Source: Antedon mediterranea (lineage: Eukaryota > Echinodermata > Crinoidea > Comatulida > Antedonidae). From it: DNA of 64,000 nucleotides. The first letter of the stretch is position 1; each line of letters opens with the position of its first letter. Below, one piece after another: positions 3,801-59,073 of this stretch. A model generated the notes under the pieces. That model worked only from the letters and a program-made list of their open reading frames with translations. It was not told the DNA's origin and searched no databases. The position numbers were made by a program, and so were the translations under genes. The DNA lies in the NCBI RefSeq assembly GCF_964355755.1, contig NC_092671.1, forward strand, positions 15,633,501 through 15,697,500, written 5' to 3'.

Positions 3801-6800
3801 TGCTTGTTAGAATAGTATAGTATATAGTATAGTAGTCAAATTTAATAATATGACGACCTATACACATATATACGTGCTTTTGAGATAGGTAGGTTTAGTT
3901 TTATAATCTCGACTACCATTTTATATTTCTGCTAAAAATACCATTACGTCCACCAGTACTGCTGCAACTCCTAGGCAACCACCCTTAATTGTGCAGATTC
4001 ATTACACCCCCAACAAAGTACAACATTAGGTTTCAATTACCTATTATGATTTGTTCTGCTTTAAATGACACAAAAAGGAAAACTGGGAGTCAAAAATTAT
4101 TAAACCATCATCCCAACTTTCTATTTTGTTAGACAGTTTTGAAATGTTATATGGAAAGCATGTTTTGCCAATATTGGGAGGTTAAAGGTCAACATTTGAC
4201 CTCAGACTCCCACTCACTTTCCAAGAGGGTCATCTGAACTGTGTGTATCATAATCAAAGAGGTCTAGGTTTAGAAACTGCCCATCAATCACATCAACTAC
4301 TGCCTGAAATTAAAAATTTAATGTCAATGTCAATCTTCTTTTTTTATAAGAAAAGGGGTATGACCACATCTATTCCAATTAGAAGTGGTTCCATACATTT
4401 TGTATAATAAATAGTAATAAATAATAATCATTCTCGCGCAGATGTAGTGACATTTCTTGAAATTTCAGAAGTTAAAAACTTTTCAATCATCAATCGCAAA
4501 AGTATGGAACCACAAAACAAGATTGAAATACACATGGCATCCGCTGCAAGACTCACTTTCCCATTGGATCATCTTTGTCTGCGTCTTTATCAAAAAGGTC
4601 AATTTCCACTGTCTGCCCGAGTTTCTCAAACACGACAACCTAGAGACAAATAAGAGCCTTGCAAACTGGTCATAACCAATCATGCATTTCCTTATATGAT
4701 TCGTTCTAAATTAACTAAAAAAATACTATTAAAGTGTATTATTATTTATGCCTATTAGTATATTGGGACCCAACAAACTGTCCCTTTAATGGGTGCTCGC
4801 TTAATATGGGTTAACCATAGTGTTAAAAATATATATTTTATAGCCTTTTTTTCAGTTTATGTAAAAGTGTCCCTTTATAGGGGTGTACCCTAAATAGGTG
4901 TGTCCCCTAAATAGGTGTGTCCCCTAAATGGGTGTGTCCCCTGAATAGGGATGCCCCAAATAGTTCTACTGTATTATAATTGAAATCTATTAGACCTGAA
5001 TTTAAGTCTTCACCTTATCAAAACTATCTAGAAGAATACCATACTTAAACACTGAATATTACTATCTAAAGTTAATCGATGCAAACACCGAAGTGAGATA
5101 CCTGGATACTTATGTTGAATAGCTCTATCTCTAAATAACACTGCTGTATGAAATGGAACAACTTCTTTGAATAGCTAAAAAACTACACATTTTAAGCATG
5201 CAATAATCAAAGATAAAAATGAAGTGGAGCTGTAGCTTGGTGGTTAACATGCTTGCCTTCAATCCTGACCTAGTGCCAAGGTTGTAAATCCACTCCCTGG
5301 GCCTTAAATTAGATTTAGTTTTTAATAACGATAAATTATAAAATAGTTTATCCATTCTGTAACTAGCGAGTTTGTGCTTGCTGTTGGATGAGTATGAAAA
5401 AGAAGTTTAGAGTATTTAGTTTTACTAAGTATTACAAACATCATGCGCTATAACTAGCAATGTTATTCTAATTTCCTAATTCTATGGACATTACCTCTCG
5501 TTTTTAAACATGCCATAATAAAATCTAGTATGAGAATGGAGAAAGCATACAGTTTGTTATGTCAAAATAATATAAATGTCTAGTACTGTAATACAATTAT
5601 CATATATAATGAAACGGTTAGTAAAATCTATCTATAAGTGTCATAACATTATGATTCTAATTGGGCATGAGCAGTCAATTGGGTTGTGAGACGGAACTTA
5701 TTATCGACTGACTCACAACTCAATTTAAACCTCATGTACACAAGCTGTAAACATAACCATGATGGATTTGACATTAAAACTAAAAAAAGTACATGCAAAA
5801 AGGTAAAATCTGTAGGCAGTTACCTCAAAATATTTATTCCAACTTGGGTCACAGGTATTATTTATCACCTTTGTTTTGAACTTGTGAGCGCCCACTGAAA
5901 AAAAACAAAAAAACATCTATAATACTCAAGATTAAATGATTAAAAAAATTAATAGTATGATATAGTCTACTTAGGCTATGTTTCCAAAGCTGTAAGAAAA
6001 TTATCGGTTAATTTTTTAACCATAATTATTAAAACAATATAGTGCGCATTTGCAGACATTACCGAACAACCAACTACCCAATCACAGTGCAACAATTTGA
6101 CTTTTAGGTTAAAGGTTAACATTATTGCATTTTATCCGATAATTATAAACTGATTTGAATCAGACAACTATTCTTGAGCGGAACAGTTTCCACAGAAAAT
6201 TTATTGGCATTTCCTTTTTTTTTTGTGTTTAGTGAATATAGAATGACATCTTTTTCAAATTTCCCAGAATGGGGTTACTCCTAAATTAGAACAGGGGGTA
6301 GGCATTCTACTACAGACATTTAAGACTATCTACTTCAAATCAAATAGGGGAATAGTACCTTCCACAACCACATAGGGGTCAGACTTTCCCTTCTTTAAAA
6401 ATCCGATATCCATTTTCATCAAATTTCGAGCTTCCACAATATTGATTCTCAATACACCCTAAAAAACAAAATCCACTTAGTATCAGTTATTGATGAAATA
6501 ACATGGAAAGCAAAGAAAAACAATACAGGCAATATGAAAATTATATAATACATAATTTATAATTATGACACCAGGGGCTTTTAGTGAATGAATTATTAAT
6601 ACAATAAAGCATTGGGCAAGAAGTAATGGATACAGATTATTTATTTACAGATAATTTAATAATTGAGTGGTTAATGATATTGTAAAACATAAAGGCAATA
6701 TAGGTATATACCATGTATTCTGCTTAACTGCATAACATGGCGTTAAGTTTGTGGTGGGTTTAACTGGGAATTGAAATGTATTGGACTGAACCAAGGCAAT

Positions 6801-9800
6801 CCAACAACAGGACACTGAGCTCGCCTTGACAAAATAGGAACTCAAAACAGTTTTTTTTTAATCTTGTATCTTGCTGCGACAAATACCAACAGTACTGTAC
6901 ATAATCTGTGACATGTGGTGTCTGTTAAGGGGCATGGACCTGATCGTGTCCCAGCCACCGTTAAAACCCTTTGATCTCTGGAGCTCAGCATTCTGTTCTT
7001 AGATTGCCTTGACTGACTTAGTATGTTAATACAATTTAAAATATTGCCATAGGTAAACCCTTTGATCTCTGGAGCTGCATTCTGTTCTAGATTGCCTTGA
7101 TTGAACTTATTGAAGTTTACTGCACTGCACATTTAGAAGTGCGTCAATATTCACATGACAGAGGTGTATTACCACATAAGTATATTAATACAATTTTAAA
7201 TATCGAGTTGCTGCCACAGATAAACCCATTGTGTGTTTTACCACATTAGTATATTAATACAATTTTAAATATTGAGTTGCTGCCACAGGTAAACCCATCG
7301 TGTGTATTACCACATTAGTATATTAATACAATTTTAAATATTTAGTTGCTGCCACAGGTAAACCCATTGTGTGTATATACCACATTAGTATGGTAATACA
7401 ATTTGTTGCCTTACCTCAGGCATGGGGTATTTCAAACTTGTCAGGTCCACATCTTCCATAAGACTGACGGGTATACGGTTTGGCAACACAAGGAAATGCG
7501 CAATTTGATCCTCAATGATGTTACGAAGGATACCACTAACGAAAGAAAAGTGTAATATTTATATTTACACATCTTTATTCATTTACGTTTGCTTATTTAA
7601 AATTATTTCCTCAACTTAATTTATTCTCCTGTTCATAATATGTTGAAGATTTTTTTGCAGTAAGTAGCCATTAATTTTTTAATTGGACATTTTTAAAATG
7701 ATATGTCTGACAAATGACAAAACACCATCTGATATTGTTCAGTACCAATTAACAACAGGTTTTTTGTCATCTGGTACTGGTTCAATGATTTTCACAAGAG
7801 GTGAACGGAAATAAACCATCACTGTGACACAATGATAAAAGAAATTCCACATTTTAACCTCAACAATTTTTAACAATTTTAAATATATATAAAAGTAATT
7901 AGGTAATAATCTAAATTATTACAAATTTAGATATCACAATCATCAATTGTGATTGAATAATAAGTGGAGAAGCTTCAGACTCTCACAGGTAAGAAAAATC
8001 AGTTGAAAAAGCCAACATTTCTTTTCATCTCATTTTTCATTTTATTTTGATTTTCTATATATAGAGAGAGCTTGTAGCCCCACTATTTTATTGATTCTTT
8101 GAACTAAATATAGCTGCACATGCAAATATTCTTAATGCATTTATCGATAAAGATATTTATCTCACCTTATGCCTGGGATGTCAAGTACATCTGCTAAATT
8201 GGTTAAATTAAAATCTGTAGCCTGAAAGCGAGTAGATTATATACTTTAAACCATTATACTATAATTAAGAGCATAAAATTAGAAAATTGTGGATGTAAGC
8301 CCTACGAAAGAGAGAAAAGGTTACCCCTTGTTAACTTCTCCACAATTCCAGTAATTGAACAATAATTAATGCACAATGGGTAACATAAATATAATGTGCA
8401 ATGTAATACACTAAATGGGTAAAAAAGATGTCGGTAATTGAGCATTAATGCACAATGGGTAACATAAATATAATGTGCAATGTAATACACTAAATGGGTA
8501 AAAAAGATGTTGGTAATTGAGCATTAATGCACAATGGGTAACATAAATATAATGTGCTATTATTGTAAATACTAAATGGGTAAAAAAGATGTCGGTAATT
8601 GAGCATTAATGCACAATGGGTAACATAAATATAATGTGCTATGTAATACTAAATGGGTAAAAAAGATGTTGGTAATTGAGCATTAATGCACAATGGGTAA
8701 CATAAATATAATGTGCTATGTAATACTAAATGGGTAAAAAAGATGTCGGTAACTGAGCATTAATGCACAATGGGTAACATAAATATAATGTGCTATGTAA
8801 TACTAAATGGGTAAAAAAGATGTTGGTAATTGAGCATTAATGCACAATGGGTAACATAAATATAATGTGCTATGTAATACTAAATGGGTAAAAAAGATGT
8901 CGGTAATTGAGCATTAATGCACAATGGGTAACATAAATATAATGTGCAATGTAATACTAAATGGGTAAAAAAGATGTCGGTAATTGAGCATTAATGCACA
9001 ATGGGTAACATAAATATAATGTGCTATGTAATACTAAATGGGTAAAAAAGATGTTGGTAATTGAGCATTAATGCACAATGGGTAACATAAATATAATGTG
9101 CTATGTAATACTAAATGGGTAAAAAAGATGTCGGTAATTGAGCATTAATGCACAATGGGTAACATAAATATAATGTGCAATGTAATACACTAAATGGGTA
9201 AAAAATATGTCGGTAATTGAGCATTAATGCACAATGGGTAACATAAATATAATGTGCTATGTAATACTAAATGGGTAAAAAAGATGTTGGTAATTGAGCA
9301 TTAATGTACAATGGGTAACATAAATATAATGTGCAATGTAATACTAAATGGGTAAAAAAGATGTTGGTAATTGAGCATAAATGCACAATGGGTAACATAA
9401 ATATAATGTGCTATGTAATAGTAATACTAAATGGGTAAAAAAGATGTCGGTAATTGAGCATTAATGCACAATGGGTAACATAAATATAATATACAACGTA
9501 AAAAAAGATGTTGGTAATTATAACTTACAGGTTTATTCAGAAAGAAGAACGACATTCCACCAATCAGAGGCATGATATTCACCAATGGTTTAATCTCTAC
9601 ACGAAGAGTTCCATGGAGCTATTGTTAAAAAAAAACATTTACCAAAAACTTCATTATTTACTTTAATATATATGTTAACAATGCTAATGATACAGAGTTT
9701 ATACCTAATTACTGTAAGCACTTAAGGATAGTTAGGATACTTAAATATAATTTTGGTTTTAACAGAGTATTAAAATAAAAATATATATATTCTTCACTTT

Positions 9801-13500: not shown

Positions 13501-16500
13501 TAGTTTGCATTTAAAATAGAACAATTATATCAAATGTTATTTATAGTAAAACTAATAAATTGAAACATTGAAATTAAAAAATCATACAAAACATACTTAT
13601 TCTTTTAGTACAGTACATACTGCTTTTTTGTGGAAATATATGCTGTTTATGATGACATATGATACTGTACATCCAATAAAAAAGGGCCAATTAAAAAAGG
13701 TTAATTCAAGTCTAGATAATTATAGACAACCTGCAATACCAAGATCCATTAAAGTATAAAGAAAGAAGAAAAAACTTACATATCGCCCTAGCTTGATCTT
13801 CTCAAACCTAAAAGATTTGAGATAAGATGGGAGGGCCTCTTGTACGGATGGTTCGACAGTCTCTTTCAATAAATCTGTTACATAACCTTCGATAAATGGC
13901 CACAGTTGCTTCACAATCTAAGCAAATTTTAGAAGAAGGTAATTTAGATAAATACTTCAATTGGAGCGTATTGGTATAAGACAACCTTTTTGAACATGGA
14001 AATGGAATATGGTGAAGGGGGAGGTGGAGAGAAACGGGTGCGGAGGAAAGATGGCAGAGATATATAGGGGTGGAGGATACAGGCAAAGAGAGAGAAGGGT
14101 GTGGAAGAGGGGAGGGATGCGTGAAGGGTGTGGAGGAGGGGGAGAGCAGTGAGAGAGGGATGTGGAGTAGGGAGGAGTGGTGAAAGAGAGATATGGAGGT
14201 GAGACAGATAAACTATAATCTTTGAACTTTCCTTAATGTATTCCTGCATACAGCCTACAACATCTAAAGACTTAAAACAACATACTGTAGTACAGGATAT
14301 TGTGTCAGTATACTTTGAAATTATAACACACCCACAAAGGTCATGGGGACATCCTGTGCACATTAAATATTATTTACAGCAAATTAAATTCAAATAATGA
14401 TTTGAATATTGATTGCTTTGTTACTTGAAATTTGTGGTGAAATCGGTTAATATGGTTAAAAAAAAAAAAATGTAAAACACTGTATTCAATGTACTGTACA
14501 GTACTTCTTTGTTTTATTATATAATGTAAAGTTGATAATACTTTACTTAGAAACATGTTAAAGGTTCTCAGATTTGGATTTTAATTGGAAGTAAAACTAC
14601 CACTGTATAAAAAAAACGACTGTACCTTGTTTAACCATTCTGCCCTTTCGGTGTCTGGAAAATAAACCTATAAAAAAAACAATAAACATACTGTATTTAT
14701 AAATGAAAACTTGTTTTTCTAATATGGCAACCACTGCAATACAACTTCAGTTTATAAAACACATTTTCTTTTATTTTACAAAATAATCTATGGTTTTCTT
14801 TCTTTTGGGTTGGTTTTTCTCAATTTTGAATTGACTGAATTCTGTAATCAATACAGTACGATACCATAGCAGTTTTTGTACTGTAACTGATGACCTTACA
14901 ATCAACTTACAAAGAAACTAAAATTGACTAAACTGTACAGTTTGGCACATAAATAGTTTTGTTAAACAAATTCTATGACATGTAGGATTATCTTGTGTAG
15001 GTTTTTCTTTCATCCTTTGAATTAGGGATTGGTATTCATTAGGAATGCTGAGTATGTTTAGCAGTGATCAATTCAAAATATCTTGCCTGTGTCGTGTACA
15101 GTTAACATGCTAGGTACAGTTGTAGAAGGTACACTTGTAGTAGGTACGATACAGTTGTAGTAGGTAGAGTTACTGTACTGTACACACTGTGTGCTATATA
15201 CAGGAATAATATGTCTATCACATTATCAGAGTATGTAGGTACTTTGAATTATCATAATAGTCACAGGGAAGCGAGATTGTGATGAAAACCAAATAAATGG
15301 ACCCGAGTATCTTGATAAGCAGGCGGGTTGTATGCTCCTTAAATCAATTTCAAGGAATTATTTATTTATTTACACTGCTGTATCCTAACCAACAGGGCTT
15401 GTTATGACCCACACCAAACCAAAGGATTCACAAAGTGGGCCAGTGCTACGTACGAGTATTAAGTAGGCTGTTTGTAGTGCTGTATTTAATTATTTTCACT
15501 TACATACTGTAACTGTATCCTAACCAAGAGGGCTTGTTATGACCCACACCAATCCAAAGGATTCACAAAGTGGGCCAGTGCTGTATCTTGCGAGTACTGT
15601 ATTCATTAACTAGGCACATGGTACGCTTCATTCAAATCAATTGCACAGGTTTTTTTACAGTTTAGTTACATACCTTATATTCTAACCACCTTCCTCTATG
15701 ACATACTGTAGGGGGTAGTCTCACAATCTACTACAACATCTTAACCTCTGTCTACACTATCAAACTAGTTTCACAAAAAAAGTGTGATGTGCCCAAATAT
15801 GGTAGTAATATGACATCATGTCTATAGGCACATCACATTTTTTGGTTAATAACGTTTGATAGTGTAGAAAGAGCTTTGGGCTTGATATTAGTTAGCTACA
15901 AACCAGGCCTACTGTAAACACTGTAGATACTGTACTGTAACCCTAAATTTGCCATAAAAGTATGTAAACCCTTACACCGAAACTAATCTTCTGTATATTT
16001 CTGAGTTAGACTACTGTATGATGATTTATGCAAACAAAAGTATAGGGATGAGCCTATCAGCATGGTCAACCATGAGTATAATTTTGTTAATAGTTAAAAA
16101 CAACCCACACAACATGCTATGATACTAGTGATGAATATCTCAATTGTACACTTGTTTTTGTTTTTTATTAACCACAAGAATGGTTAAATCTTCAGAAAAT
16201 ATAACTACTAATCCTTGATAGATACAGTACACTATTCAGTTTATATGAATTGTTGTAAACATATCTAAATATAATGAAAGAGATAAATACTGTCAGTAGT
16301 GAAATAGTAAAATCAATAACAAGTTTTTATTTGGCACAATTATTGTGCTGTTGGTTTTACAGATTTACTGTAAAGTGGCACTACACTTTTTTGAAAAGTA
16401 AAACATGGTGTGGGTAGATACTACATTGTATATTGTACTTTTTCTATTTATGCGATTTGCACAATTTGAAACCTCACAAGGATCCTCTTGCACGAACATT

Positions 16501-17452
16501 TTCAATCCAAGTACCGTATTTTGATTTAAATTTAGAAAATTTCAAACAGTGCAAGGTATTTTCAGTATTTGATAAATCAATCAAAGCTTGTAATCTGTTA
16601 CGCATAATAAATATAAAAAATGACATTTTATAACACAAGAAATAAAACATTTTATGTTTCAATCCGAGAGACGAGAAAGCGTGATTGGCTTGAGTGCATA
16701 ATAGATTACGACAGGGATTTTCCTTTATAATGCCTTGTTACAGTGTTAACTTGTGTTAAAATAGCACAAGTTACATGCAATTTGAAATTGCACCAAAAAA
16801 TCCTCCTGCAATTTGAAATTGCGCAATAATTTTTATTATTATATGATGTTCATAAATCTGTGAAAATAAATACGATTATAATCGATGATACTGACACATA
16901 CACAGTTTAACGAAATCTAGACCTAGCATTCATGATTCCTTTTATGCTGGCATAAAAAGTTGTAATTGCATCCACTGGAGGAAAATAGGCATCTGCTGAA
17001 CTAACTACAGCAGAGTAGATTACTGGCCTAGCCTAGCTAGTAGTAGTAGTACACTATAGTAAGTAGTAGTAGGCCATTTCTTTACACTAAATTAAAATAA
17101 AGATTTGATTTACCCATGACGGCAATTCTTGAACAGCAGCTTCTATTACTTGTCTTTCACTTGTTACTGCTTGTCTGGCAACTAAAAGTTTGACTTCTTT
17201 TCTTTTAGTTGCTTTTTCACGAAGCAACAGTACAATCACTATCATGAATACCCAGCTACTACTGAAGCCACAGTATCCCATAAACCAAATCGAAAAAAGC
17301 ATGAAAAATACACCGACATACTTCTTCAGAATTGGTAAGAGGTCATCTACAGCATGCGACGTTGTCTCTTTTATATCTGGTGTTGTCTCATCGTCTAAAT
17401 TCGAATTTAAATCATCCGAATCTGCAGCTCCACTTGAGGTTGAAGCCTCCAT
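854..17452 (-). CDS. ESYT: Extended synaptotagmin (E-Syt), 5' part, cut by left window edge
   Basis: ER-anchored tethering and lipid-transfer protein of ER-plasma membrane contacts. Coding exons: 17452-17114, 14667-14626, 13917-13780, 12769-12693, 12255-12180, 9618-9529, 8221-8166, 7535-7415, 6458-6359, 5894-5824, then either 4639-4557 or 4303-4218, then 2953-2905, 1729-1640, 949-854. All have GT-AG borders and matching phases, giving about 476 residues. Residues 1-42 are acidic and Ser-rich. Residues 43-77 are a hydrophobic hairpin membrane anchor. The SMP lipid-transfer domain runs about 110-300 and opens with PDTERAEWLNK and QLWPFIEGYV. C2A runs about 305-425 (GVLRINIVEARNL, GKSDPYVVV, and a calcium loop in the alternative exon). 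The last exon starts C2B (ILIVRLDSAKDLP). Human E-Syts share this order. The rest of C2B and any further C2 domain lie outside the window. The start is the first ATG of exon 1, beside a conserved upstream motif. ESYT2 versus ESYT3 class is not resolved. Confidence 0.93.
1281..1447. mobile_element. MITE with TTAA-flanked terminal inverted repeats
   Basis: A non-coding element of about 165 bp. The left end TTAAGGCCAATTTACACAGA is mirrored by the right end TCTGTGTAAATTGGCCTTTAA. The imperfect match extends further inward over AAGCGGTAA / TTACCACTC. TTAA at both borders would fit a piggyBac-type target duplication. It lies in the intron between the last two E-Syt exons of the window. Confidence 0.7.
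1841..2064. repeat. Long inverted repeat formed by two head-to-head SINE bodies
   Basis: The arm starting at 1841 (TCTCATTCTCACAGATTTCC) and the arm ending at 2064 are about 104 bp each. They are nearly perfect reverse complements around a TATATATATA centre near 1952. Both arms are the body of the same SINE family. The minus-strand copy retains a tRNA-like head at 2071-2142. The RNA of either strand would fold into a roughly 100-bp duplex. It lies in an E-Syt intron. Confidence 0.85.
2071..2142 (-). repeat. tRNA-derived SINE head (tRNA-like fold, anticodon AUC)
   Basis: The minus strand folds as a full cloverleaf: acceptor GCCCCAG/TTGGGGC (7 bp), D stem GTCT/GGAC, anticodon stem TCTGC/GCAGG with loop ATATCAA, and T stem CCGAG/CTCGG with loop TTCGAGT. 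A box TGGTCTAATGG and B box GTTCGAGTC are present. The anticodon would be AUC. Metazoan Asp tRNAs use GUC, so this is more likely a SINE head than a working tRNA. It is followed by the SINE body shared with 1841-1945 and 2398-2494. About 75 bp upstream of the head (to about 2215) may belong to the element. Confidence 0.75.
2398..2530 (-). repeat. Truncated copy of the same tRNA-derived SINE
   Basis: Starts with CAGGCAAAGAACAGTAATTC and repeats the body and the start of the tRNA head (GTCGCCCCAACCGAGACTCG) seen at 1960-2095, then breaks off after about 2530. AT microsatellites lie just before it. The remaining stretch 2531-4217, apart from the E-Syt exon 2953-2905, is AT-rich intron with a TA-rich run near 3745-3790 and nothing else recognised. 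Confidence 0.75.
4218..4639 (-). other. ESYT: Mutually exclusive E-Syt exon pair (C2A calcium loop 3)
   Basis: Exon 11a (4639-4557, 83 nt) and exon 11b (4303-4218, 86 nt) both start in phase 0, end in phase 2 and have donor AA|GTGAGT. Their translations are homologous: both start with a V-V dipeptide region and end LFDxD...DDPxGK. Joining 11a to 11b gives AAG CAG TAG, an immediate stop, so only one can be used per productive transcript. Exon 11a encodes LFDKDADKDDPMGK, close to vertebrate E-Syt. Exon 11b encodes LFDYDTHSSDDPLGK, one residue longer and spaced like a PKC-type C2 loop. No transcript evidence is available. Confidence 0.8.
5223..5403 (+). repeat. Second tRNA-derived SINE family, plus-strand copy
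   Basis: The head GTGGAGCTGTAGCTTGGTGG looks like a tRNA A-box region. The tail runs from ATAAATTATAAAATAGTTTA to TGTTGGATGAGTATGAAA. The same head and tail occur at 13276-13021 on the minus strand, and the tail alone at 32735-32820. The B-box region is degenerate here. It is intronic in E-Syt. Confidence 0.75.
6955..7412. repeat. Tandem repeats of about 68 bp and related units in an E-Syt intron
   Basis: From 7165, about 3.6 copies of a 68-bp unit (TATTACCACATTAGTATATT ... TTGCTGCCACAGGTAAACCC). Just upstream, 6965-7110 holds two copies of a segment with CCTTTGATCTCTGGAG and TTCTAGATTGCCTTGA. The array ends a few bases before the donor side of exon 7535-7415. Confidence 0.8.
8340..9522. repeat. 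77-bp minisatellite, about 15 copies
   Basis: The unit contains TAATGCACAATGGGTAACAT, ATAAATATAATGTGC and ACTAAATGGGTAAAAAAGAT. Most copies are 77 bp; some have 2 extra bases (TAATACACTAAAT). Copies differ at a C/T site (GATGTCGG or GATGTTGG), which alternates in the first half of the array. It fills the intron between E-Syt exons 9618-9529 and 8221-8166 and ends within 10 bp of the first. Confidence 0.95.
10473..10985 (-). pseudogene. LINE 3'-end fragment (RT C-terminus and A-rich tail)
   Basis: On the minus strand a frame encodes a segment homologous to the C-terminus of the LINE at 57556-59200. Shared landmarks are a K-x-x-NS-x-F block, R-V-N-x-x-KNG-I/F and a D-I-F block near the end. 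The plus strand starts with a (TTTA)n run at 10470-10509, the reverse of a 3' tail. The frame is open for about 123 codons but only the end of the element is present. Region 9619-10472 before it shows nothing recognisable. Confidence 0.75.
11380..11897. mobile_element. TIR element of about 520 bp with internal 86-bp tandem repeats
   Basis: The left end ACACAAGAATCTCCTGTTC is mirrored by GAACAGGAGATTCTTGTGT at the right end, and the match extends outward through AAAGAACTTATAA to about 35 bp. Inside are three near-identical 86-bp repeats starting at 11492, 11578 and 11664 (GGAGTAGGGCGCCCGCATCA), the last ending in a run of G. No coding capacity. It looks like a non-autonomous DNA transposon with an internal minisatellite. 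Confidence 0.75.
13021..13276 (-). repeat. Second tRNA-derived SINE family, minus-strand copy
   Basis: On the minus strand the head GTGGAGCTGTGGCTTGGTGG is followed by the B box GGTTCAAGCCC. An unrelated middle part follows, then the family tail ending GTTGGATGAGTATGAAAT and an AAATA-rich run. This is the most complete copy of the family also seen at 5223 and 32735. It lies in an E-Syt intron. Confidence 0.8.
13985..14205 (+). repeat. Polypurine tract with imperfect GGA/GTGGAG repeats
   Basis: About 220 bp that is almost all A and G on the plus strand, built of degenerate short repeats (GTGGAGGAGGGGGAG, GTGGAGTAGGGAGGAG). It sits in the second E-Syt intron, so the transcript carries the pyrimidine strand. 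A smaller purine tract is at 12825-12890. Confidence 0.8.
15383..15590. repeat. Two direct repeats of about 70 bp
   Basis: Both copies contain AGGGCTTGTTATGACCCACA and AAAGGATTCACAAAGTGGGC, starting about 125 bp apart. Coding capacity is absent. They lie in E-Syt intron 1 (14668-17113), which otherwise holds one MITE and no recognised exon. Confidence 0.8.
15751..15868. mobile_element. Hairpin MITE, about 118 bp
   Basis: The end TCTACACTATCAAAC is mirrored perfectly by GTTTGATAGTGTAGA. Inner segments AAAAGTGTGATGTGCC and GGCACATCACATTTTTT are also complementary, so almost the whole element folds on itself. Intronic in E-Syt. Confidence 0.8.
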
Positions 17453-17554
17453 GTTTCTTGGTTTAGTTAGTTGTTTTGTTATGAGGAATGCATTGGATGC
17501 AGTGAAGCGAGTAAAATAACCTTAATCAACGATATCCAGGTCAACCTTTTTTAT

Positions 17555-25687: not shown

Positions 25688-28600
25688 TTAAACTTTTGTA
25701 TTTTCATTGTCATCTTCATTGGGTGCGATTGAATATGCTGACGTCACCAGTGGTGTGTTTCTTATGTTTTCTCCATCTTCGATAGATTCCGGTAGAGGTC
25801 GGTTTAATGTTTCGGGCAAGAGCAGCATAATTAAACCTGCTATCGCAGATAGTACAGCAAACAGTACCATAGGTACCCATGAAACAGACTTTCCCTGCAA
25901 ACATAACAGCAACATGAATGTCTACAGAACATCAAGGTACACTACATTCTGAGCATGATAGAAACCTAAATTTGATAAACTCAATGTGAAATCGAAAATA
26001 TATTTGATCTTACCGAGTACATGATATAAGGAGCCGAAATTCCACCAATTCGAGCCATCATAGAACATTCTCCTATTCCAATGGTACTGCACAAAAATAA
26101 TAAAATAATGCGACAAAACAATTCACATAACACAAGACACATCCGTGTAGTTTCAAAGCATTGTATGCCTAAAGTAACTATTCTTATATCTACATATTAT
26201 ACGACCACTTCTTGCAATTTATTAAATTTACCGTATAACCGTTGGAAAGAGTTCGGACGAATATATCCAAACAACGGTGTATGTCAATGTTATACAAAAC
26301 TTGCCAATAAAAGCCATCGTGATTATGAGCGGCGTGAGGTTAGTACCATTACCTAGAATGTAAACATATTTGGATAAATGTGATGCAGTTGTCTCCACAC
26401 CTTTATGTAAAATGGAATCTTCCTGTAAAAATTCCTATCATTTTGTATAATAATACACGATAGTAGTAGTGATATAGGAAGCCTTACTAGTTTCCACTGG
26501 AATGACAATTGTCATGATGCAAGCAACAGAAGCAAGTATATGAAAGAAAAGAAGCAACTGCCGGCGACCGAATCTGCAAAGAAAATATGAATTTATTCAG
26601 GCAAGACTGGCTATCCATTCTATCACAAATTAACATGTTGCATAATATTTAAATATATTATTGTCCCCGTTCAAATTTGTTGGCTGGACATGCCCAATGT
26701 TAAACTATAATTGTTATTCCCAATTAACAAAAATTGGATCGAAAAAAAAATTACCTGCAAAACTGTAATTTAAGGAAAAAAAAACGAACTGAAAGTCAAT
26801 GTTGGGTTTTGGTTGAATGTAACAGTCTGTTTTGTATTTTATTTTGTGTTCGTTTTGTTCCTCCGGAAGTGATTAACAAAAACCAACAAATTTAAAATCT
26901 AATTTTATTAATCATCATTTTTTTATGATTTTGGCGAACAATACATCTTTAAAGTTATTTTTTATAATTGCCACCTTTTGTCATGGTTGGATAATTGTCT
27001 GGATTGATATACATTATAGCCAACTTCTGTCGTAAACGTCAATGTCTTCCATTCATCTGAATGATGACTAAGCCAGGACTGTTTAAAGCACTTTTGGCTG
27101 GTCCCAACATTGATCAAGGGTTTCTCTCGTCCAGTACCCACCTTAACTAGAGGAGAAACATAAGCCAATACGTAGGAGGCGTTGCTTAACTTGGGTGAGC
27201 AGCTGACGGGAACCGGTGTTTCAACGTGGTAAGGCCGTAATAATTGATATCATTAACGTACCTAGGTAATGCCCATATTTGAACAATGTATGCTGGAACC
27301 TCAGCTAAGCCAATAATAAAGAAGTTTAGGAATCGGTCTCCTGCCAAAGCAGACGAATTTAGCGACAACCCATAGTAAACTGAACTGTTTACAGTCCTAA
27401 ATTTAAAAATAAATATGATAAAAGTTCTTTGTATTGTATTTAAAAAAAGGAAATATGACATAAATATGATTGTCGAAAGTATTTATACAAAAAAATTTTC
27501 TAATCTATGAAACCTACCACATGAAAAACAACACCAAAGTCCATCTTCTCAAATTCGGTGTTCGTACGGTGTCAAACACAGAATATTTCTTTGCATGGGA
27601 TCCAGGATTCTTTTCTTGTTTTGATTCTTCTTCAAGAAAGCTACAATCGACTCTGTTGAATCTTGCCATTTTCTCAAGAACGCGTCTTGCGTCCTCGTGA
27701 CGTCCAACCGACTGAAGCCATCGTGGAGACTCAACAAGAAACCTATAAAAAAAGCAGATAATAGTATTTAGGTAAAAAACTACAGAAACAAACTCTCTGT
27801 GATTATTGTCATTTCCAGATACATATTCCAGTACTATAGGTTTGACGATGTGAATTAGATTAAGATTCTGTATATACAATTTTGAATATTATATTAATAG
27901 ATGCTAAACACATCACGTGTAAAATAAGAAAGTAGGTCCACGGTATCATTGGAACTTAAAATCTTACCACCAGAATAGAAGAGCAGGTATCATAGGAAGT
28001 GTGATGGCCAATTGAAAATGTCGCCAGTTTTGTAACAGGTACGCGATTGGTGTCAGTACACATAGACCAAATCCCCATGCAGTAGTAGCGATACAGCAGG
28101 CTAGTGATCGTTGCTTTGGTCGGAATAATTCCAATAATAAAATGAAGGAACAAGTCAACTGGCCCTAAAAACATAAATACAACATATTTTATTTTACTTC
28201 CGATATCGGTGTTTGATTTATTTATTGGACGATCATACCATGCTAGAAACAAGATTCAAATTTCATTTCATTCACTTTTATTGGCAACAAAAATAAATGT
28301 CAAACTTACGGAATAGGAAATTAAATTTAAGCTAATCAAGTATAAAAACAATAGTAATTAAAGAAGAAGGGAAAAAGCTACAAATATTTTAAATTTTAGT
28401 TTATCAGCTCAGATTCTATTGTTTTTTTGTATTCGTGTTCTTCATGTATTTTATATTTGGCAATAAAAGAATAAGAATAAGAATCAGATGCCCTGAATGA
28501 AAAAACATTTAGATCCCTCGAGTTAGAATGATCCTACGGACGGCTATCAAGAAAACATTATTTTCAACTCCGTCATATCCAATTGTAAATAAATTATTAT

Positions 28601-32158: not shown

Positions 32159-34171
32159 ATGTCAATGTCGAAACAAACACAAAACTCTGTTATCCGTGAT
32201 TATGTTAAATACACGAGCTATACAGAGGGAAGAGATAAAATTTACAGGTAATTTATTTAAACTAGCCTAGGCTTGGATAGCTAGGCCTAGGCTAGAGTTT
32301 AGTAAAAAGATAGGCCCAAAACATTGTTGTGTGCAAATTTCATTTTTGCACCAACCATGCAGGCTGACCTGGGAAAAACGAAAACTTGTGTGGCGAGGCA
32401 GAAGGCTATCTGAAAGTAAACCATATCGTTTGATTTATCTTTAGGACAATCCAGTATGCTTCCAGATTTGTATTATGGTATCTTTCAAGGCGGGATAGTG
32501 TGACATCGTTTCACCAGAAAGTCAAGAATTTGGAGTCGGCAATTACAACATCAAGAAAATGTAAATAAAACATTATTTGTCTGACATTGATTGTCGTGAT
32601 TGGTTTTTTTTTTCAGATTCATCATATTTTAATCATATAGTATACCTTATATATAATATTTAATACCTGTTTTTCCCAAAAAATAAATAAATACTGTATG
32701 TCTTAAGACTGAGAAGAGACTTAGTTTATAAGCACGATAAATTATAAAATAGTTTAGTCATACTGTAATTGGCGAGTTACTTGCGGTTAGATGCATATAA
32801 AATATAAATAAAATAAACATTAACAAATTAAAATCAGTGTTAAACAGTGTTGTATGATAACTTGCTTTCAAAATCAAATGCTAACATTCTAATTTGCATA
32901 ATTGCATTGAGTCATGTTGGTTTGGACCGCATTAATTACAAATATAACCTTCGCTGTGTCTTTAACAGACTAGCGATAGATTTAATTTCAGCACAACAAT
33001 TGCAAACAAATCTTGCAACATTTATCTGCCTAATAGAATCAGTATTCACAACAAATTTTTCCCAACAGTATTCAGAATGTTGAGATGCATCGATTTTTCA
33101 CTGAAGGCTGTAGATGCATTGCGTACAACAGATGAAAAGCTCAAAATGTTTGCACTCATCGGAAGTATTGGGAAAGCCGGTTGGCTAGTGCTTGACCATG
33201 CGATATGGTTTGGACAAATCAAAGTTTTCACGGTACACAATTATGTTTAAATTAACATTTGTAATTTAATCTGTGTTTGATTGCAACTTTGTACAGTACA
33301 TAATCATGAATTTGAATTAATAATTTGTAGTGCATTTCTTAGACTATAGACCATGTATAAATACAGCATGTTTAAACTTTACATATTTCTCCAGCCTTAT
33401 TAATACAATGGTTCCTTAATTAAATGATTCTGGTTACTTAGGCGTCTACCAAATCTGTAACATGATTTACCGATTCTAATTCTTTGCTTCCTTCTGATAG
33501 GTTGAAAGTCAACGATGGGCAAAGCTTTCATATTGGTTATGGTTGATTGGTGTGACGGCTCTCGCACTCCGTGATTTCCGTAAAATCAATCTGCTAGTTG
33601 CTCAAGCCAAAAAATTAAGAAGCCAGAGTGAAAGAGAAGAGAAAACTGCAATTAAAGCTGAACTTGATAAAGCAAGAATTGAATTTTTGATTGATGTCTC
33701 AGATGCGTTTATCCCACTCGCAGCGTTGAACTTTTGCAGCAAAGGTCTTGGTGCATTAGGTGGTGTGATTGCCTCGATAGCAGGTGGCTATCTTGCATAT
33801 GAGAAAAATATTGTCGCTAATAGGTAAATAATTGCTTCACATTATATGAAATCATCATTTTTATATCATAATTATGTTGATGCTGATTGATGATTGGCCA
33901 ACACATTTGTGGACAGTATCCTAACAATTCTATTGATAATTTATTAAATATTTTATCTAATGTCAATTCTAGTGGGTGTAGGGTCTCTGACAATTGTAAT
34001 TTGGGTTCCAAATATGTACTAAAGATTGTCACATTGATTTGAGTGTTTTTTAAATATAAGTTGAAAGGAAAGTACTACTTTTATATTTTATTTTGTATGT
34101 ATTTTTAAAGTGGAAAAATCAAAGCAAACATGATTGATTATGCATTCCCACCAAAATACACTGCAGAGTGA
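32159..34171 (+). CDS. PEX11: Peroxisomal membrane protein PEX11 (alpha/beta type)
   Basis: Exons 32159-32247, 32445-32560, 33069-33232, 33501-33823, 34111-34171; 753 nt, 250 aa, as usual for PEX11. PEX11 inserts in the peroxisomal membrane and drives elongation and division. Landmarks: N-terminal RDYVKYTSYTEGRDKIYRT, then TIQYASRFVLWYL and KNLESAITTSRKLFRMLR (amphipathic helix region), the central WLVLDHAIWFG, and a C-terminal region with FLIDVSDAFIPL and a hydrophobic Gly-rich segment GALGGVIASIAGGYLAY. The last exon adds a short polar tail (SGKIKANMIDYAFPP). It is convergent with PECR, stop codons 309 bp apart. Confidence 0.93.
32735..32820 (+). repeat. SINE tail fragment in PEX11 intron 2
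   Basis: ATAAATTATAAAATAGTTTA and GTAATTGGCGAGTTACTTGC followed by an AAATA-rich end match the 3' part of the SINEs at 5223 and 13021. No tRNA-like head. Confidence 0.65.
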
Positions 34172-55000: not shown

Positions 55001-57555
55001 TATTGATATAAGTAGTGAGTTAGGCAGAAAAAAAATTATGACTTAGACACTTTTGTTATGAGGCTGTCGATATCATCTATATACAAAAAATGCTACCTTT
55101 AAGTAACAAAATTTAAGAGCATCAGCTCTTCAGATTAAAATTAACACTGATGATTTTAGAAAAGGAAAGAAGCAATAAAAGAGAAAGAATATGTAACAAA
55201 TGGGTTAAAAAATATACTATAAAGATGTATTTCTTATTTTATTTAAAATATCATGAGTCTCCTCTCCTTAATTTCCTAAGTCACACAGCTGACTTAGGCA
55301 GAAACACAAAAAAACGACCTGAGCATGTGCAAATGTGTATAAAAGCACTCTGATAATATACAGAGGGCAGTATAAAGATATAAGCAGTGAGTTAGGCAGA
55401 TCATAAGTCAGCTCTCCTTAATTGCCTAAGTCACACAGCTGACTTGGGCAGAAACACAACAAATATAGTATATTGATATAAGCAGTGTGTTAGGCAGATC
55501 ATAAGTCAGCTCTCCTTAATTGCCTAAGTCACACAGCTGACTTGGGCAGAAACACAACAAATATAGTATATTGATATAAGCAGTCAGTTAGGCAGAAAAA
55601 CAAAACAAAAATTATGACTTAGACACTTTTGTTATGAGGCTGTCGATATCATCTATATACAAAAAAATTCTACCTTTAAGTAACAAAATTTAATAGCATC
55701 AGCTCTTCAGATTACAATTAACACTGATGATTTTAGAAAAGGAAAGTAGCAATAAAAAAGAAAGAATTTGTAACAAATGGGTTAAAAAATATACTATAAA
55801 AATGTATTTCTTATTTTATTTAAAAACCATGAGTCTCCTCTCCTTAATTTCCTAAGTCACACAGCTGACTTAGGCAGAAACACAAAAAAACGATCTGAGC
55901 ATGTGCAAATGTATATAAAAGCACTCAGATAATGTACAGAGGGCAGTATAAAGATATAAGCAGTGAGTAGGCAGATCATAAGTCAGTTCTCCTTAATTGC
56001 CTAAGTCACACAGCTGACTTGGGCAGAAACACAACAAATATAGTATATTGATATAAGCAGTGAGTTAGGCAGATCATAAATCAGCTCTCCTTAATTGCCT
56101 AAGTCACACAGCTGACTTAGGCAGAAACACAAAAAATATAGTATATTGATATAAGCAGTGAGTTAGGCAGAAAAACAAAACAAAAATTATGACTTAGACA
56201 CCTTTGTTATGAGGCTGTCGATATCATCTATATACAAAAACTGCTACCTTTAAGTAACAAAATTTAATAGCATTAGCTCTTCAGATTAAAATTAATACTG
56301 ATGATTTTAGAAAACGAAAGTAGCAATAAAAGAAAAAGAATTTGTAACAAATGGGTTAAAAAATATACTATAAAAATGTATTTCTTATTTTATTTAAAAA
56401 ATAATGAGTCTCCTCTCCTTAATTACCTAAGTCACACAGCTAACTTAGGCAGAAACACACAAAAAAACGATCTGAGAATGTGCAAATGTATATAAAAGCA
56501 CTCAGATAATGTACAGAGGGCAGTATAAAGATATAAGCAGTGAGTTAGGCAGATCATAAGTCAGCTCTCCTTAATTGCCTAAGTCACACAGCTGACTTAG
56601 GCAGAAACACAAAAAATATAGTATATTGATATAAGCAGTGAGTTAGGCAGAAAAAAAAATTATGACTTAGACACTTTTGTTATGAGGCTGTCGATATCAT
56701 CTATATACAAAAAATGCTACCTTTAAGTAACAAAATTTAATAGCATCAGCTCTTCAGATTAAAATTAACACTGATGATTTTAGAAAAGGAAAGTAGCAAT
56801 AAAAGAGAAAGAATATGTAACAAATGGGTTAAAAAATATACTATAAAGATGTATTTCTTATTTTATTTAAAATATCATGAGTCTCCTCTCCTTAATTTCC
56901 TAAGTCACATAGCTGACTTAGGCAGAAACACAAAAAAACGACCTGAGCATGTGCAAATGTGTATAAAAGCACTCTGATAATGTACAGAGGGCAGTATAAA
57001 GATATAAGCAGTGAGTTAGGCAGATCATAAGTCAGCTCTCCTTAATTGCCTAAGTCACACAGCTGACTTGGGCAGAAACACAACAAATATAGTATATTGA
57101 TATAAGCAGTGTGTTAGGCAGATCATAAGTCAGCTCTCCTTAATTGCCTAAGTCACACAGCTGACTTGGGCAGAAACACAACAAATATAGTATATTGATA
57201 TAAGCAGTCAGTTAGGCAGAAAAACAAAACAAAAATTATGACTTAGACACTTTTGTTATGAGGCTGTCGATATCATCTATATACAAAAAAATTCTACCTT
57301 TAAGTAACAAAATTTAATAGCATCAGCTCTTCAGATTACAATTAACACTGATGATTTTAGAAAAGGAAAGTAGCAATAAAAGAGAAAGAATTTGTAACAA
57401 ATGGGTTAAAAAATATACTATAAAAATGTATTTCTTATTTTATTTAAAAACCATGAGTCTCCTCTCCTTAATTGCCTAAGTCACACAGCTGACTTAGGCA
57501 GAAACACAAAAAAACGATCTGAGCATGTGCAAATGTATATAAAAGCACTCAGATA

Positions 57556-59073
57556 TTATCTAAACTTGAGTTTAATCAGGAGGTTATAGAAAAGCACATT
57601 AATGAAATTGATTCTCATAAGGCTTCAGGTAATGATGGTCTAAGTAATATTGTTTTGTCTTTAGCTGCCAAACCTCTTTCTTTCCCTTGTAAAATTTTAT
57701 TTGAAAGATGCATTTCTGAGAAACGTTTTCCGATAAAATGGAAGCAAGCTAACGTGTGCCCTATCTTTAAAGCTGGTTCTAAATCTGATGTACGCAATTA
57801 TAGAACGGTTTCATTGTTGCCAACTATTTCTAAAGTTTTTGAAAAAATTGTTCACGACCAAATTTTTAAACATATATCACCAGTTATTAGTGACCATCAA
57901 CACGGATTTTACCCAGGAAGGTCTTGTGAAACAAATTTGTCTGTTCTGTTGTCACATGCGTATGACGCAATAAATGCAAAAGGGCAATGCGAAGTTGTAT
58001 ATACAGACATGGCTAAAGCCTTTGACAGGGTCTCCCATAAGTTGCTCTTGTTTAAACTTCAACAATTTGGTCTAAATCACGATTTAATTTTATTTTTTAC
58101 AAGTTATTTATCGGACAGGTTTCAGAGAGTCACTTTTGATGGTAACGCGTCTGAATGGCTTCCAGTTTTATCTGGAGTGCCTCAGGGGTCTATTTTGGGG
58201 CCTCTTTTTTTCATTATGTTTATTAACGATTTTTCCTTTGTTCCTCGTCATTCTAATGTTCTTATGTTTGCTGACGATATCAAATTATTTAAGTCTATAC
58301 AAACTTTAAATGATATGTTGTTGTTACAAGAAGACGTTGACAGACTCATTCACTGGTGCGACACTTGGAATATGTCAGTCAATGCCTCTAAATGCAAATC
58401 AATGTCTTTTACTCTTAAGAAAAAACCCATCTATTTTGACTTTTATATTAAGAATATTATACTTGAAAGAGTCTCTGTTCACAAAGACCTTGGTGTTTTT
58501 TTAGATAGTTCATTAACCTTCTGTAAACATATTGATTTTATAGTCTCTAAATGCAATAGACTTTTGGGTTTTCTTTGGAGACATTGCAGACATATCAACG
58601 ATAAAAAGGCATTAGTTATTTTATACAAATCTTTAGTTAGGTCGAATCTTGAATTCTGCAGTGTTATTTTTAACTCTATTTCTCTTGCCCAGTCTTCTAG
58701 ATTACAAAGTGTACAGAACAAGTTTTGTCGATTTTATGTGCGTAAATTTGGTTCTATTAGCAAAGACGTTCTTTTTAATTTAGCGGGTAGGCGTAAGTTA
58801 TTTGATTTAATTTTTCTTTTTAAGGTTGTGAACTCAATTTTTCATGGTAATTTTGAAGTGTACTTTCCTATTTCTGTTCCACAATATCAATTGCGTTATC
58901 CTGCTTTATTTTCTATATCAAGAGGGAGGGTAAATATTACTAAAAATGGTTTTGTTAATCGTTTGCCTAAGTTATACCATTCACTATGTAAAATTGATGG
59001 ATCTGTTGATATTTTTTTTGATTCCCTTGCTTGTTTCCGTCACAAGGTTTTGTCTAATGTCAGTAATATTTAA
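57556..59073 (+). CDS. Partial LINE reverse transcriptase, open frame
   Basis: 505 codons open from the insertion point to a TAA. The frame has no native start codon because the 5' end is missing. RT landmarks by residue: SHKASGNDG (about 22-30), DMAKAFD at 151-157, SGVPQGSILGP around 206-216, catalytic FADD at 238-241, then the thumb and a C-terminal region with FLDSSL and SRGRVNITKNGF. This is the order of CR1/L2/Jockey-type non-LTR elements; the clade is not resolved. The endonuclease domain is absent, so this copy cannot move alone. The absence of stops suggests a recent insertion. Two decayed relatives lie at 10473-10985 and 47283-48120. Confidence 0.93.
   Translation, partial: LSKLEFNQEVIEKHINEIDSHKASGNDGLSNIVLSLAAKPLSFPCKILFERCISEKRFPIKWKQANVCPIFKAGSKSDVRNYRTVSLLPTISKVFEKIVHDQIFKHISPVISDHQHGFYPGRSCETNLSVLLSHAYDAINAKGQCEVVYTDMAKAFDRVSHKLLLFKLQQFGLNHDLILFFTSYLSDRFQRVTFDGNASEWLPVLSGVPQGSILGPLFFIMFINDFSFVPRHSNVLMFADDIKLFKSIQTLNDMLLLQEDVDRLIHWCDTWNMSVNASKCKSMSFTLKKKPIYFDFYIKNIILERVSVHKDLGVFLDSSLTFCKHIDFIVSKCNRLLGFLWRHCRHINDKKALVILYKSLVRSNLEFCSVIFNSISLAQSSRLQSVQNKFCRFYVRKFGSISKDVLFNLAGRRKLFDLIFLFKVVNSIFHGNFEVYFPISVPQYQLRYPALFSISRGRVNITKNGFVNRLPKLYHSLCKIDGSVDIFFDSLACFRHKVLSNVSNI

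Follow-up and report, generated by a model that had tools for sequence, protein, structure and literature searches.

A putative pair of mutually exclusive exons for calcium loop 3 in the C2A domain of an extended synaptotagmin gene

The closest described system is arthropod Esyt2, for which the text of Craxton (2010, PMC2823689) describes mutually exclusive exons that alter the first C2 domain. In the same paper, the legend of additional file 43, which belongs to an alignment of arthropod Esyt2 exons, names phase 0 and +2 introns, with their assignment to the exon borders left unstated. The survey covered Strongylocentrotus, Branchiostoma, Ciona, Lottia, Capitella, and Nematostella, and its passages on Esyt2 name such exons for arthropods alone. 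A later list (2018, PMC6071210) gives D. melanogaster Esyt2 a cluster composed of three mutually exclusive exons.

Here we describe an extended synaptotagmin (E-Syt) gene with two adjoining homologous exons in its C2A domain. The gene lies on the (−) strand at the left end of the window, by which we mean the whole stretch of DNA that was analysed (64 kb); positions given without a contig name refer to this window. At the level of the published text description, arthropod Esyt2 is similar to this locus in its gene family, in the domain concerned (the first C2 domain), in the naming of phase 0 and +2 introns, and in mutually exclusive exons, which are predicted at the present locus. Unlike the cluster of three listed for D. 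melanogaster Esyt2, the present locus has two exons and belongs to a deuterostome-like genome.

More distant parallels are found in other C2 domains. The alternative C2B exons described for invertebrate Syt1 also swap part of a C2 domain (PMC2823689), although they belong to another gene and affect another C2 domain. According to the passages on Caenorhabditis Syt1, its alternative C2B exons also grow in length, by 2 or 3 residues (PMC2823689). Homologous tandem exons that substitute for each other are likewise treated in work on human tandem duplicated exon substitutions, according to which many fly/human orthologue cases arose in parallel (PMC9741552); neither ESYT nor synaptotagmin occurs in its main text (0 occurrences). 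A literature search on E-Syt splicing, in which subscription journals were thinly covered, brought up no such pair outside arthropods, which is weak evidence of absence. The C2A domains of dysferlin and Piccolo are known to occur in splice forms with different calcium binding, by way of an alternative first exon in dysferlin and of a small insertion in Piccolo. As in these two proteins, alternative splicing would retune a calcium-binding C2A domain at the present locus; unlike them, it would do so with a tandem homologous exon pair, and in an E-Syt. The exon-swap design is already known, and what is new is the taxon; the interest of the pair lies in this and in the contrast of two loop types. 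In this respect the sequence-only reading, which set the pair against vertebrate E-Syts alone, needs correction, as arthropod Esyt2 had already been reported to carry the design in its first C2 domain (PMC2823689).

The E-Syt gene and its tandem C2A exons

Judged from its predicted exons, the gene is an extended synaptotagmin with an SMP domain. Two exon matches to the SMP family (Pfam PF17047) are located on the (−) strand, one at 9526-9621 (contig C2:15643026-15643121; 27 bits, at the cut-off) and the other at 13783-13920 (contig C2:15647283-15647420; 25.7 bits, under the cut-off). The genome of 354 Mb yielded no further PF17047 matches at E ≤ 0.1, with three candidates scored in a search that weak matches can escape. 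An open frame at 17087-17521 (−) contains, by frame reading, a putative N-terminal exon (MEASTSSGAADSD...). This frame includes a hydrophobic stretch, judged by eye, as is sought for the N-terminal membrane hairpin of E-Syts.

The C2A domain is encoded by an exon chain composed of 6458-6359, 5894-5824, exon A or exon B, 2953-2905, and 1729-1640, all on the (−) strand. The first constant exon (6359-6458, 100 nt) harbors the loop-1 aspartates (...KMD..., ...KGKSDPY), as seen in an alignment to human E-Syt2 (4NPJ), and the second (5824-5894, 71 nt, phase 1 to 0) ends with ...TTT GAG followed by gt. Downstream of the pair, in-silico splicing gives a constant exon of 49 nt (2905-2953, phase 2 to 0) and the last C2A exon of 90 nt (1640-1729). 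The best PDB matches of both isoforms are the human E-Syt2 C2A structures 4NPJ, 4NPK, and 4P42, with E-Syt2 scores of 122 bits for the A isoform and 101 bits for the B isoform. Together with the SMP matches, this agrees with the earlier assignment of the exons to an E-Syt C2A domain. In addition, a weak C2 match at 152-238 (−) (contig C2:15633652-15633738; 18.4 bits, under the cut-off) is read as part of C2B, and a second C2 match above the cut-off is located within the neighbouring 10 kb (contig C2:15626715-15626867, 41.5 bits). Pieces of C2B and C2C were also read by eye in the locus. These matches and pieces suggest that C2B and C2C are present, so that a three-C2, E-Syt2/3-like layout of the gene is likely.

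Exon A (4557-4639 (−), 83 nt) encodes the peptide VVVFEKLGQTVEIDLFDKDADKDDPMG with a loop 3 of E-Syt2 length, and aligns to 4NPJ without a gap. Exon B (4218-4303 (−), 86 nt) encodes AVVDVIDGQFLNLDLFDYDTHSSDDPLG, and its loop 3 is longer by one residue, which appears as a one-residue insertion against 4NPJ. Both exons begin in phase 0, end in phase 2, and have lengths of 2 mod 3, and they are flanked by a preceding exon (5894-5824) that ends in phase 0 and a following exon (2953-2905) that begins in phase 2. Each of them possesses its own AG acceptor and its own donor. The donor sequence is identical in the two exons (AAA then gtgagt); the earlier statement that they use the same donor therefore holds for the sequence and not for the site, there being two separate donors, one per exon. 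Otherwise, direct reading confirmed the coordinates, splice sites, phases, and peptides first proposed for both exons. The locus thus combines the usual features of a mutually exclusive pair, namely adjoining homologous exons of similar length and equal phases with splice sites of their own.

Spliced in silico, A alone or B alone results in an open C2A domain, and both isoforms pass the Pfam C2 threshold (88.5 bits for A and 86.0 bits for B). Joining A to B leads to an instant stop (...MGKQ-stop, AAG CAG TAG), which reproduces the stop noticed in the sequence-only reading, and skipping both exons leads to another (...FEPKS-stop). Such a break of frame upon inclusion of both exons or of neither is usual, though not universal, in mutually exclusive pairs. 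Here it follows from the asymmetry of the exon, which runs from phase 0 to phase 2. Since any tandem duplicate of a 0-to-2 exon is frame-incompatible with its source, exclusivity at the protein level comes free.

We consider it highly probable, on the strength of these sequence features, that the two exons are a mutually exclusive pair which arose when one C2A exon of an E-Syt2-like gene was duplicated in tandem. According to this model, each transcript would carry one exon, either A or B, and nonsense-mediated decay would clear the mis-spliced products. The two resulting proteins would be distinguished by loop 3 and by the strand that runs into it, and this difference would probably tune how calcium triggers lipid transfer and the tethering of the ER to the plasma membrane.

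Calcium loop 3 in the two predicted forms

The alignments to 4NPJ are in line with the earlier proposal that the swap affects a C2A strand together with calcium loop 3, and that the loop of B is one residue longer. In exon A, loop 3 has the sequence DKDADKDD. The longer loop of exon B shows D, D+2, S+5, and D+8, counted from its first Asp. Through loop 3, A aligns with human E-Syt2 without any gap (LFDKDADKDDPMG vs LFDEDPDKDDFLG), whereas B is gapped against E-Syt2. Conversely, the loop of B aligns ungapped with a dysferlin C2 stretch (LFDYDTHSSDDPLG vs LYDYDLLSKDEKIG), where A needs a gap. The same spacing of 0, +2, and +8, with Ser at +5, is present in the loop of Syt1 C2A. For plant SYT1, the ligands described in the C2A crystal structure include Asp332, Glu334, and Glu340, which correspond to positions 0, +2, and +8 (PMC8380656). 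Moreover, exon A contains three Lys and two Glu, and exon B is devoid of Lys or Glu at those places.

The acidic residues of loop 3 are retained in both exons, and the loop-1 aspartates are located in a constant exon. From these residues, A looks like an E-Syt2-type loop and B looks like one with Syt1/dysferlin-type spacing, and both look calcium-competent. Because both exons retain the acidic loop residues, neither form is predicted to lose calcium binding. The comparison suggests that the swap tunes the calcium response rather than turning it on or off, and the most likely effect is probably an altered calcium affinity or membrane insertion.

Vertebrates possess separate E-Syt1, E-Syt2, and E-Syt3 genes with different calcium responses. 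An animal with a single E-Syt gene, as counted by the SMP search, may gain two C2A calcium sensors by way of splicing. In addition, two natural forms of one protein that are identical apart from the swapped loop would constitute a clean tool for studying the role of C2A loop 3 in calcium-triggered lipid transfer.

The intervening intron and the divergence of exon B

Exons A and B are separated by an intron of 253 nt (4304-4556 (−)), which contains two inverted-repeat arms at 4385-4400 and 4498-4513, each 16 nt long and 94% complementary to each other. The predicted fold of the intron (MFE −56.6 kcal/mol, z −3.35) is matched in stability by 1 of 200 shuffles, and in it the donor of A is paired with sequence that lies upstream of the acceptor of B. 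A hairpin of this kind could mask both of these regions, thereby blocking the joining of A to B, as an added layer that is compatible with the duplication model. The shuffles and the well-matched arms speak for such a layer; however, the A donor would be masked also when the use of A is needed. Furthermore, among 502 windows of equal size (the region of the intron included), 91 fold equally well by raw energy and 37 do so when GC content is corrected for. We give the hairpin little weight because so many equal windows are as stable, and we regard its contribution as doubtful. As the main cause of exclusivity, RNA structure can be set aside for the same reason, being a weak extra at most.

Other mechanisms linked to the intron were also considered. 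A length of 253 nt seems too long for a steric block of splicing, and such a block by a short intron accordingly appears not to apply here. Incompatibility between U2 and U12 sites does not account for the exclusivity, as both donors are GTGAGT, of the ordinary major type. A mobile-element origin of the intron was rejected, as its only genome match at E ≤ 0.001 is the intron itself, in a search that carries a caveat about very common words.

The relationship of the two exons was evaluated by a chance scan, which collected all stop-free AG...GT stretches of 77-95 nt with lengths of 2 mod 3 from both strands of the 64-kb window (n=359) and scored them against the human E-Syt2 segment by global alignment with BLOSUM62. 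Among the 359 candidates, A scores 80 and B scores 42, followed by a third-best score of 7; the mean is −26 with an sd of 11, A and B counted in. The scan thus contains no third copy of the exon among stretches of this length in the window, and the exon B peptide has one genome-wide match at E ≤ 0.001, which is exon B itself. A and B share 57% nucleotide identity and 13 of 28 aligned residues, and B is far above chance, which agrees with the homology claimed at the outset. Over 27 codons, dS between them is about 2.5 and dN about 0.47, with dS near saturation and imprecise.

Exon B looks constrained in its sequence. In a simulation of neutral drift, fresh copies of A accumulated substitutions only (no indels), and those at 54-60% nucleotide identity were retained (n=4000). 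The reading frame is open in 1097 of these 4000 copies, the observed protein score of 50 is reached in 14, and score, open frame, AG, and GT are all intact in none (0/4000). Under milder drift (0.5 substitutions per site, 64% identity), the score is retained in 609 of 4000 copies; the argument for constraint thus hangs on the observed divergence, because milder drift alone often retains the score.

These results bear on whether exon B is an unused relic, that is, a duplicate no longer spliced into mRNA. The greater divergence of B from human E-Syt2, visible in its lower scan score, would fit a relic, but B is open, has its AG and GT, shares the donor hexamer of A, and retains the acidic loop residues. 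Its dN is also well below dS, an excess that could partly stem from constraint on A alone, and at the observed identity no drifted copy retained score, frame, and splice sites jointly. We therefore judge the relic to be unlikely. Least probable of all, and improbable by a wide measure, is a pair that serves mainly as an expression switch, in which stop-containing mRNA with both exons or neither would reduce the amount of E-Syt made, the two proteins differing in minor ways: early stops do arise from double inclusion and from double skipping, but they follow automatically from the exon phases, and the retained C2-like loop of B is left unexplained.

Several artefactual or external sources of the pair were also addressed. 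An assembly duplication is at odds with the 57% nucleotide identity of A and B. A genome search with the spliced A form (293-nt query) revealed no retrocopy, its four matches being the exons of the gene itself. Among pattern matches to form A in viral and prokaryote contigs, no relatives were present (0 of 9 and 0 of 32).

The host genome and the origin of the pair

The genome comprises 354 Mb in 18 contigs, among them C2 with 40.9 Mb, C11 with 22.3 Mb, C12 with 0.57 Mb, and C18 with 13 kb, which suggests 11 chromosomes if the contigs are ordered by size. A homeodomain query gave 37 matches in the genome, of which 12 form a single run on contig C2 at 7.83-8.21 Mb, 11 on the (+) strand and one on the (−) strand. 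This run (contig C2:7827797-8206135, about 380 kb) displays an apparently full Hox order from posterior to anterior, in which a single gene of posterior type is inverted, and looks like an intact deuterostome-like Hox cluster. By eye, we take its members to be Hox1 to Hox8, one Hox9/10-like gene, and three Hox11/13-like genes, so that four would be posterior-like. In the frame read, the protostome UbdA peptide is absent from both genes that occupy the Hox7/Hox8 position. As judged from these gene sequences, the Hox pattern points to a deuterostome, most likely an ambulacrarian. A search for Chitin_bind_4, an arthropod cuticle family, gave 0 matches and 0 candidates in this genome, which alone shows little, since the control genomes are silent as well. 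With the Hox run also unlike that of protostomes, an arthropod genome is unlikely. A search for COX1 as a marker of the taxon gave 0 matches.

Because the genome points to a deuterostome, the pair would be either convergent with the arthropod one or older than arthropods. On balance we favor, with some reserve, a reading in which the C2A loop-3 exon that is duplicated in this E-Syt, from a deuterostome and probably an ambulacrarian, is the one duplicated in arthropod Esyt2 as well. Either the asymmetric exon was hit at least twice, or a switch of bilaterian age was lost in most lineages, and the combination of a Syt1/dysferlin-type loop with an E-Syt2-type loop would provide two calcium sensors from one gene. 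The exclusivity that an asymmetric exon brings for free may explain why the same exon would be duplicated repeatedly. If the same exon was truly chosen in distant phyla, the pair would clearly exemplify exon duplication that is either convergent or very old.

A second group of homeobox genes was observed on contig C5 (29971190-30066467), where three matches, the third of them weaker, lie within about 95 kb. Two of these we read as Xlox/Pdx-like and Gsx-like, presumably members of a possible ParaHox cluster. Elsewhere in the 64-kb window, an exon of a Sugar_tr-family transporter gene is located at 27514-27888 (−) (37.9 bits) and an exon of a PEX11-like gene at 33501-33827 (+) (54.4 bits). A 516-aa open frame at 57523-59073 (+) encodes a reverse transcriptase domain (Pfam RVT_1, 114.7 bits) and represents a retrotransposon piece. 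In addition, very stable fold-backs of −92 to −112 kcal/mol are predicted for 253-nt windows whose upper ends lie at 2024, 2151, 2278, and 40251, possibly corresponding to inverted-repeat elements.
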